NCBI RefSeq assembly: GCF_036924535.1
Contig: NZ_JAZHRT010000001.1
Location: 9,352,501-9,416,500 of the forward strand
Reading direction: 5' to 3'
DNA: 64,000 nucleotides
Source of the DNA: Bradyrhizobium sp. AZCC 2262
GTDB taxonomy: Bacteria; Pseudomonadota; Alphaproteobacteria; Rhizobiales; Xanthobacteraceae
The position numbers and the translations under genes were made by a program. Positions within the stretch are counted from its first letter, which is position 1, and each line of letters starts with the position of its first letter. The notes beneath the pieces were generated by a model. That model had not been told where the DNA came from. It did no database searches and saw only the letters and a list, made by a program, of their open reading frames with translations. Of the stretch, positions 12,063 through 14,238 are shown in pieces.

Positions 12063-12317
12063 TTAGAAGCCCATGCCGCCCATTCCACCCATGCCGCCGC
12101 CACCGCCGGGCATCGCCGGAGCCGGCTCCTTCGGCAGTTCGGCGACCATGGCTTCGGTGGTCACGAGAAGGCCTGCGACCGACGAAGCGTCCTGCAGCGC
12201 GGTACGAACCACCTTGGCCGGGTCGATGATGCCCTTGTCGACCATGTCGACATATTCCTCGGTCTGGGCGTCGAAGCCGAAGGTCTCGGACTTGTTCTCG
12301 AGGATCTTGCCGACCAC
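12063..12317 (-). pseudogene. stranded 3' end of groL (direct repeat, copy A)
   Basis: These 255 bases encode the last 84 residues of GroEL ([16 protein letters not shown] ... [11 protein letters not shown], stop at 12063-12065) without the rest of the gene. They match 13984-14238 of the intact groL at a constant offset of 1921, with 13 mismatches, 12 of them within 12116-12183. The protein differs only near the tail ([13 protein letters not shown] here, [13 protein letters not shown] in the intact gene). The match stops abruptly at 12317/12318, 30 bases from the protease stop codon. The old terminator still follows, so this is most simply the displaced native end of groL. Confidence 0.9.
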
Positions 12318-12346
12318 CCGAACAACCGGATGACGATAGCTCAATG

Positions 12347-13456
12347 TCACGGGATTGGAACAATATTTGGATAAATACCTGCCGCCCAATCGACAATATG
12401 CGTTGCATAGCTCGCGTACGAAGAAGATCCGTGACCACCTATTAGCATTCCGAACCACTCGTCTGGGAGACCTGGACGAAGCACTGCTGCTCCAGAATCG
12501 CCTGGTTGGCTCAAGCGCGTTTGGAAGTAAACTGGTTCACGATATCCAATCTCAAAAATATCTCCGCAACAATACATTGTCTTGGTTTTGAATAAGTCAA
12601 TCTGCTTCCAAATTGTAGCTGAGAGCACCTGTGCTTGCCTCTGGCGCCCTCGTCCTCTGAACTCAACTAGATCTCCTTGGGTAATGGCGGAGATTGGATG
12701 AATCCTTCGCGGTTCTCCCGTCTCAATCGATGTGTGCGGATCAACCCTGATCAAGGCAGCATCAACGCCATTTGCCGCAGGCTCAGCAAAGCGATTACAC
12801 GGTCCTGTTCCGGTTGGAAAAATGACAGAATCCACTCTTCCCAGCTTGACCGCTTGGCGCCGCGCATTGCCCGTTATCGCGATCCCTTTCTTCCGTCCGA
12901 CGTGACCACACGTCAGCGCGTATGTAGTTTCTGCAAGTGTGTCGCGGAAGAATCCGCAGACAGTACCCTCTAATCTTGCGGCGCCTGCCTTGATAGAATC
13001 ACCGCAGACGTATTGCGCTTCAATAGGACCCGCCACTCGATATTTGATGCGAAAACCTTCATATTGTGTGGGTCCGTCTGAAAATAGTGGATTTTTGGGA
13101 TCTGCGACGTCCACTAAGATGGTGACGGCTTTTCTCTTATTACCTTCATTATTATTCAGCCAACCTGCGAGCGTGTGGAATCCTTGGCTTCGTTGTTCTA
13201 TCGCGGTGCGGTTTCCGTACCACATTTCTTGAATTATACTTGATACCTGAGCGCTAGCGGGCCGACCCTGATAGGAATTCTTCGTTGCTTCGTCGTGCCC
13301 ATCGCGAATGCCGTAGAACACAGCTTTCATGAAGCCATCATCAAAGCGGAGTTGGATCCCGTTTGCTCCTTTCTCATTGAGTCCAAATGGATCCTCACGA
13401 AAGAACTCAAATAGCTCACCAGAGAACGCAAGGGATCGGAGAAAATCGAGAGACAT
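12347..13456 (-). CDS. trypsin-fold (S1-like) serine protease of the inserted cassette
   Basis: The protein has 369 residues, no signal peptide and no membrane segment. The C-terminal half shows a chymotrypsin-type triad: His185 in YALTCGHVG, Asp232 in GVDAALIRV and Ser321 in QPGDSGAAV. The oxyanion-hole glycine of GDSG is present. Residues 1-150 form an extra N-terminal region I do not recognise (contains [18 protein letters not shown] and [10 protein letters not shown]); it could be a sensor or substrate-binding module. ATG 13456 has GAGG at a good distance and lies 11 bases after the stop of the small membrane protein gene, so the two are translationally coupled. The lack of a signal peptide suggests that it acts in the cytoplasm or on the inner membrane face. 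Its function is unknown; a stress or defence protease activated with its membrane partner is one hypothesis. Confidence 0.8.
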
Positions 13457-13467
13457 TGCGAAATCCT

Positions 13468-13839
13468 CTAAGATACAGCTTTGACTGCTGTCTGAAAAAC
13501 GGATTGCCAGCCTAAACCGGACACGAACAACGCGCATAGCTGCACGGAAATCGGACGATCTGGATCGAAGGCATTGCGGTACACCGCAGGAAGCAAGACC
13601 AGTGCGATTAGCAGGGCGAAAATGGATCGGCCACCCGCCGTCTGCAGACTGAAATTAAAAGCGCCTGCCGCGATGTAATTCCGCAAGAATGGATCGGTCA
13701 GCACACCAAGCGCGAGCGCTAGGTATTGTGGCACTACCGGTGCGTATTCGTGTTTATCACTGCTATGGCCAACTGGAACGTTGGAACGTCGTTCGGACTG
13801 CAAGTCAAAGTAAGCGATTACACTATTTATATTTATCAT
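13468..13839 (-). CDS. small multi-pass membrane protein of the inserted cassette
   Basis: The protein has 123 residues. After a soluble N-terminus of about 33 residues there are two to three hydrophobic segments (about 37-62, 72-89 and 97-118). The ATG at 13839 follows a GGGGGTGG purine-rich site. The upstream in-frame start at 13869 is excluded because it would overlap the -10 box of the promoter at 13869-13896. It is the first gene of the two-gene operon with the protease. I do not recognise a family. A membrane anchor, holin-like effector or regulator of the protease are all possible. Confidence 0.68.
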   Translation of the reverse strand: MININSVIAYFDLQSERRSNVPVGHSSDKHEYAPVVPQYLALALGVLTDPFLRNYIAAGAFNFSLQTAGGRSIFALLIALVLLPAVYRNAFDPDRPISVQLCALFVSGLGWQSVFQTAVKAVS

Positions 13840-13868
13840 TTTCCACCCCCTGTAGATTGATAGAGACA

Positions 13869-13896
13869 ATCATAAGTTGCGGGGTGGCGAAATCAA
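13869..13896 (-). promoter_or_regulatory. sigma70-like promoter of the membrane protein/protease operon
   Basis: On the minus strand TTGATT (13896-13891), a 16-base spacer, then TATGAT (13874-13869). Predicted transcription starts about 23 bases before the ATG at 13839. It lies just downstream of the new groL terminator, so the cassette has independent expression. Confidence 0.6.
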
Positions 13897-13917
13897 CTGT
13901 CCTCCTGGAAGGTTACG

Positions 13918-13951
13918 AAAAAAGGGGGGACGGCGGTTGCCGCACCCCCTA
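13918..13951 (-). terminator. groL terminator supplied by the cassette
   Basis: On the minus strand a GC hairpin (GGGGGTGCGGC / GCCGTCCCCC with one bulged T and an AACC loop) is followed by C and TTTTTT. It differs in sequence from the old terminator at 12007-12036. Confidence 0.85.
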
Positions 13952-13983
13952 GCATCCTTGTTCGACGAGAAATCCAGAGCCCT

Positions 13984-14238
13984 TTAGAAGCCCATGCCGC
14001 CCATTCCACCCATGCCGCCGCCACCGCCGGGCATCGGGGCTGCCGGCTCCCTCGGTAGTTCGGCGACCATGGCTTCGGTGGTCACCAGCAGGCCGGCCAC
14101 GGAGGAAGCGTCCTGCAGCGCGGTACGAACCACCTTGGCCGGGTCGATGATTCCCTTGTCGACCATGTCGACATATTCCTCGGTCTGGGCGTCGAAGCCG
14201 AAGGTCTCGGACTTGTTCTCGAGGATCTTGCCGACCAC
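13984..14238 (-). repeat. direct repeat, copy B (functional groL tail)
   Basis: The partner of 12063-12317. The last 53 bases including the stop are identical in both copies, the next 68 carry 12 mismatches, and the remaining 134 carry one. Confidence 0.92.

Follow-up and report, generated by a model that had tools for sequence, protein, structure and literature searches.

Mycobacteriophage Bxb1 integrates in groEL1 and shares with the locus described here a chaperonin gene as target, but it is a whole phage with a serine integrase. A single crossover, as general background, leaves direct repeats around the inserted DNA. That the 3′ end of a chaperonin gene can be a landing site is already known from integrase-bearing islands of staphylococci: phage-inducible and resistance islands sit at the groEL 3′ end, leave groEL unaltered, and occur in some strains and not in others (PMC8125051, PMC4651549). 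In these accounts, as far as available to us, the islands carry an integrase, reach 16.9 kb in one case and have short attachment (att) sequences (an overlap of 18 bp, or 21 bp). Bacterial genomes also contain gene-turnover hotspots without integrases, where recombination takes place at the flanking core genes (Oliveira et al. 2017, PMC5635113). In addition, two routes that combine homologous recombination at one place with one non-homologous joint have been described from laboratory selections, namely insertion of ligated linear DNA by a single crossover and homology-facilitated illegitimate recombination (HFIR); the latter, according to the part of the report consulted, generally deletes host DNA and mostly uses microhomology of 3–10 bp (PMC3240628). 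Among the papers listed by our searches of one collection, we found no description of this cassette. The present locus resembles the staphylococcal islands in having the 3′ end of an unaltered groEL gene as its site and in being occupied in some genomes and empty in others, whereas its element measures 1.9 kb, is flanked by a 255-bp repeat and showed no integrase.

The locus lies in a 64,000-nt stretch of Bradyrhizobium sp. AZCC 2262 (NZ_JAZHRT010000001.1, positions 9,352,501–9,416,500, forward strand), which we call the window; all positions below refer to it. The intact groL (13984–15630, minus strand) was identified by its translation and by the Pfam domain Cpn60_TCP1 (E = 3e-80). An earlier note, made from the sequence, had reported a second copy of the final 255 bp of groL, 1921 bp away from the first, and a repeat search reproduced this direct repeat at 12063–12317 and 13984–14238, with 95% identity and 13 differing sites. 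The remaining direct repeats in 9000–18000 were 28 and 36 nt long and 71–75% identical, and the 255-nt repeat is therefore not a chance similarity. The proximal copy (tailA; 13984–14238, minus strand) now ends the intact groL, and the distal copy (tailB; 12063–12317, minus strand) is a displaced groL 3′ end. The insert between them (12318–13983, 1666 bp) is AT-rich and looks foreign, with 50.4% GC compared with 64.4% in groL, and is mostly filled by the membrane-protein and serine-protease genes that the note had recognized, both on the groL strand. Folding confirmed that the two terminators proposed in the note are stable hairpins: a new one between groL and the cargo (13923–13950, minus strand; −21.6 kcal/mol, z −3.5), and the native, old groL terminator behind tailB (12014–12035, minus strand; −20.5 kcal/mol, z −3.4), of which a simple terminator scan listed the old one and not the new one. 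Comparison of the tails and of relatives delimited a cargo 3′ flank of 29 nt after the protease stop codon (12318–12346, minus strand), ending at a joint, 12317/12318, where no homology was visible. Reading the translated ORFs of the insert by eye, we saw no recombinase or integrase, as the note had stated, and none appeared in the family searches of the two cargo proteins. No tRNA gene occurs in the window, and an Rfam search of 9000–17500 found nothing at gathering score. Between groES and groL, at 15690–15880, lies a dyad-rich stretch that presumably resembles the dispersed repeats of rhizobia.

The differences between the two tails are unevenly distributed, with 1 mismatch in the first ~134 nt, 12 in the next 68 and none in the last 53. 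Sequence comparison marks tailB as the native copy, because it is nearer than tailA to the closest relatives, and tailA looks native for ~134 nt and foreign thereafter. Genome G160, for example, has 6 mismatches to tailB and 12 to tailA, and among the 41 relatives within 30 mismatches of tailB, 31 are closer to tailB and 7 are equally distant from both. No donor was found, and 3 of these 41 similar relatives are nearer to tailA than to tailB. The mosaic was tested against 163 relatives, which are not independent of each other; 156 could be anchored and 7 could not. In the 68-nt part, 78 anchored relatives differed from tailB at 12 or more sites, and every one of them also had at least 5 differences in the first 134 nt. 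In a coarser comparison by 82-nt bins, the window showed 5–9 and 4–6 mismatches to four relatives in the last two bins, against 4–7 and 3 between the relatives themselves, a modest excess, and the mosaic was visible only in the finer test. A mosaic tailA is most simply read as incoming DNA that replaced the groL sequence from some position within the repeat onward, which is in line with the note's view that the intact gene ends in the inserted copy.

We then surveyed the DNA behind groL in 184 genomes of the genus, comprising the present genome and 183 of 264 relatives, which were not a random sample but were picked from places listed by the search, favouring best matches and usable contigs. 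A native-type terminator (at most 5 mismatches in 22 positions, within 60 nt of the groL stop) directly follows groL in 177 of the 184, with no mismatch in 156 genomes, one in 15, two in 3, four in 1 and five in 2. The empty site that the note had proposed to look for, groL followed directly by its old terminator, is common, and carriers are patchy. The two cargo genes are not fixed behind groL in all relatives, the finding by which the note had agreed to be refuted; only the window and one further genome of the 184, G255, have them right behind groL. A comparison of every groL tail with up to 8 kb of the DNA behind it in the same genome (E ≤ 1e-6) found a second tail in the window and in none of the 183 relatives, in a test where the downstream stretch was shorter than 4 kb in 18 of the 184 genomes and an att core below ~20 bp would escape. 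In a separate tail comparison, the matches other than that of the window were scattered and 14–20 nt long and were taken as chance. Besides the window and G255, the genomes without a native-type terminator behind groL are G211, G236, G229, G158 and G005, and three kinds of block lie right behind groL, in 2, 3 and 1 genomes. The note's search for other cargo was thus successful in part: different blocks do occupy the same spot, but none of them lies between two groL tails.

G255, which belongs to another species, has the same two cargo genes directly behind groL, with a protease 70% identical to that of the window; its groL tail is not duplicated and no direct repeat surrounds the cargo. G254, almost the same in sequence around groL, lacks the cargo; the native terminator stands there in the place of the two genes. 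Up to the groL stop codon these two genomes differ at 9 positions in 2024 nt, none of them in the last 261. Beyond it, differences are dense around the terminator, number 21 in the following stretch of about 1315 nt, and give way to a long alignment gap; over this short stretch the pattern is suggestive of a right-hand exchange near the terminator. A two-sequence alignment, read without a control, of the leaders between groL and cargo in the window and G255 showed common stretches, including an identical piece of 14 nt. The order groL–terminator–cargo may therefore predate both arrivals, and the cargo may already have stood behind a groL when it was transferred.

In G211, G236 and G229 (loci L064, L070 and L089), genes for a ribbon-helix-helix-like protein (Pfam RHH_1, E = 0.013, below the cut-off) and a membrane protein stand directly behind groL. 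This block, as judged by eye, replaces the DNA from the groL stop into the 5′ end, or first codons, of the next gene, and the groL tail is not duplicated. Near relatives lacking the block, G162 and G234 (about 95%) and G227 (91%), cover two of the three carriers; G211 has no near relative in the set (best 88%). Of 198 family genomes sampled, one contained the membrane protein of the block, namely G236 itself. We do not generalize the groL tail as an arm to the other carriers, because the tail of G236 shows no mosaic compared with G162 and G234, and for G255, G158 and G229 the last bins of the comparison with near relatives showed an excess that was no more than mild or ambiguous. G158 (L059) has a 531-aa ORF on the opposite strand, 67–1662 nt after the groL stop, with what appear by eye to be an alpha/beta-hydrolase part and a peptidoglycan-hydrolase-like part, followed by an apparent remnant of the native terminator; in G157, G159 and G161, which are 96–97% identical to G158 in the next gene, the native terminator directly follows groL. 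G005 (L049) has an insert of ~105 bp with a palindrome, 1–105 nt after the groL stop and before the terminator, and similar sequence is visible in the interval of G158.

The right-hand flank of the exchange region is the next conserved gene downstream of groL in most relatives (9306–10505 in the window, minus strand), which has no Pfam match at E ≤ 0.1. In an earlier count it could be placed in 158 of 164 genomes, with an interval from groL of less than 400 bp in 119, 400–900 bp in 8 and at least 900 bp in 31. Many of the longest intervals contain related ORFs behind the native terminator, the largest group comprising 13 genomes. The variety of cargo and these interval lengths together indicate that the whole interval turns over. 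No integrase was found in the groL-linked blocks and ORFs, whose translations were read by eye together with further ORFs to 110 residues. Between the native terminator and the next conserved gene, the window also has a DUF1194/von Willebrand A-type gene (10919–11758, plus strand; E = 1.6e-79), probably a second gain in the same interval; this stretch is 91% identical in G072, on a contig other than that of its groL, and the window's own genome holds a further match of 74%.

The cargo consists of a serine protease of 369 aa (12347–13456, minus strand) and a small membrane protein of 123 aa (13468–13839, minus strand). The membrane protein belongs to no named family, with no Pfam or NCBIfam match at E ≤ 0.1 and no PADLOC match at E ≤ 1; it has 31 database matches including itself, and its C-terminal half is conserved. 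A chymotrypsin fold is predicted for residues ~147–369 of the protease, and H185, D232 and S321 are invariant in an alignment of 14 sequences, giving the His-Asp-Ser triad and the predicted fold of a chymotrypsin-fold serine protease. The score for Pfam Trypsin_2 (PF13365) stayed below the cut-off (15.1 versus 27.6 bits, E = 0.04), and 5 of the 14 family members matched this model at E ≤ 0.1 (best E 0.0043). The protease had no NCBIfam or PADLOC match and no Pfam match above cut-off, and none of the 14 members matched PADLOC at E ≤ 0.1; neither cargo protein thus matched a model of a known anti-phage defence protein at these thresholds. A sequence search of the PDB with the protease alone gave nothing at E ≤ 1, and a search with the alignment gave three matches at E 0.69–0.88, one of them a serine proteinase. 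The top Foldseek match of the model was alpha-lytic protease (E 2.8e-6, target TM-score 0.61, rmsd 11). From alpha-lytic protease, NAL1 and the DegS/HtrA folds the cargo protease differs in being ~18% identical and below the Pfam cut-off, in having ~145 additional N-terminal residues, which lie outside the fold comparison, and in its adjoining membrane-protein gene. A weak promoter-like site precedes the cargo genes (TTGATT-16-TATGAT, 13869–13896, minus strand; 9 of 12 consensus matches). The scan that found it returned 2 sites where 1.3 are expected by chance and none in G255, although part of the site is preserved in the leader of G255. The two cargo genes probably form an independently transcribed pair that is linked to the membrane and includes a predicted protease.

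Searches with the protease gave no match in 72,556 plasmid records, in 50,697 phage records or in viral contigs, and a genome-contig search gave one, a Caulobacteraceae MAG with the same gene pair, where groL does not adjoin. When 385 genomes of the class and 296 of the family, a sample that need not include G255, were searched with the 14-protein alignment, only the window's own genome matched. Two other genomes of the genus (L007 and L009) have distant relatives of the protease (38% and 34%) away from groL, adjoining, as seen by eye, an aminotransferase-like gene. In flanks of up to 1.5 kb, no direct repeat of at least 30 nt surrounds the protease relatives at L007–L011 (L012 being left out). 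At L162, copies of 34–40 nt, 68–76% identical, on either side of the gene pair were taken as chance.

We consider it probable that homologous recombination, with groL as its anchor, captured the cargo, and that one joint lacking visible homology left the duplication. The cell's own recombination machinery would bring small blocks of genes by homology into the slot between groL and the next conserved gene, and groL would be the anchor on the left. The donor fragment would have comprised a foreign groL end, its terminator and the membrane-protein and protease genes, and would have recombined with the resident groL inside the tail, where the first ~134 nt of the repeat would contain the switch from native to foreign sequence. 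The other end of the fragment would have been joined at 12317/12318, inside groL and upstream of the crossover; through this offset, 255 bp would have come to be present twice, with the native tail and its terminator remaining as a relic. Several properties of the hotspots of Oliveira et al., as far as that account goes, recur here: the flanks are conserved, the slot holds different cargo, its presence is patchy and no integrase was seen (PMC5635113). Exchanged tracts also extend into flanking core genes, namely the next gene in G211, G236 and G229 and the groL tail in the window. The absence of a tail duplication from G255 and from the blocks of these three genomes is as expected of exchange through shared flanking genes. 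To judge from the same account, the window departs from such hotspots: in place of a clean double exchange, it shows one joint without visible homology and a core-gene tail in two copies. The earlier note had suggested that the groL tail may be the homology arm or landing site of an undescribed mobile cassette. That groL anchored the entry is supported by these data, while a mobile cassette with the tail as its landing site is not: none of the 183 relatives has a second tail, G255 and G254 differ by the cargo and not by a tail, and the blocks of three other genomes run into the next gene, all of which points to homologous exchange through the flanking genes.

The strongest competitor, although we regard it as unlikely, is site-specific insertion of a small satellite with an att site in the groL 3′ region, by a recombinase supplied in trans. 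The incoming tailA restores the end of the target gene and tailB is the displaced old end, as in islands at tRNA genes and groEL; groEL 3′ ends serve as attachment sites in staphylococci; and the same cargo stands at the same gene in two species. However, no integrase was seen among the ORFs of the insert, and the tail comparison, which would miss an att core below ~20 bp, revealed no short, fixed core common to several insertions. The 255-bp repeat also far exceeds the 18-bp overlap between groEL and att given for the staphylococcal case in the material at hand. Moreover, G255 carries the cargo without a second tail, the blocks of three other genomes extend into the next gene, and none of the 183 relatives has a second tail. 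Less likely still is a cassette that cycles without any recombinase of its own: the two tails would recombine through RecA to release a 1921-bp circle of groL tail and the two cargo genes, which could enter any groL by homology and leave it whole. The anatomy permits this, as the 255-bp repeats are 95% identical and 1921 bp apart and excision would restore an intact groL with its native terminator, and if it were true, the end of an essential gene would itself be the entry site, with target function restored each time. Yet the arrangement occurs in 1 of 184 genomes, G255 has no tail repeats to recombine, and the window's own genome holds no second insertion, its two further tail matches (74–75%) being groL-like genes. 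An assembly artefact, finally, is very improbable: nothing speaks for it beyond the repeat itself, whereas the genome is a single contig of 9475967 bases and 100% complete, the tails differ at 13 sites, and G255, also a one-contig genome, has these genes behind groL as well.

Under capture by homologous recombination, then, two routes can be considered: ligation could have closed the fragment into a circle that a single crossover then inserted, or the fragment could have entered by HFIR. Both share with the window, as described in the consulted part of PMC3240628, homologous recombination at one place and one non-homologous joint. Insertion of a ligated fragment by a single crossover would leave just such traces: a doubled tail, a native relic and one joint lacking visible homology. 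Such a crossover with a foreign circle nevertheless predicts a donor-like first part of tailB, and the actual first part is native-like, so this route also requires that mismatches were corrected, that one repeat was later converted by the other, or that the donor was itself a mosaic beforehand. Unless one of these took place, HFIR fits better with the native first 134 nt of both copies, but the host DNA in the window is duplicated and not deleted, unlike the usual outcome in that report. The tail duplication was seen in 1 of 184 genomes, and any choice of route rests on this one case; the donor and the route are inferred, as is the lack of a recombinase acting in trans.

Cargo flanked by a duplicated gene end is not in itself proof of an integrase-type element. 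The arrangement suggests that a block of genes without a mobility gene could arrive behind an essential core gene in this way, with the conserved end of that gene acting as the homology arm and being made whole by the incoming copy. In Bradyrhizobium sp. AZCC 2262 the event is recorded by the mosaic tail and the displaced relic, and the comparison of G254 and G255 shows that the same genes were gained at the same place without such a scar.
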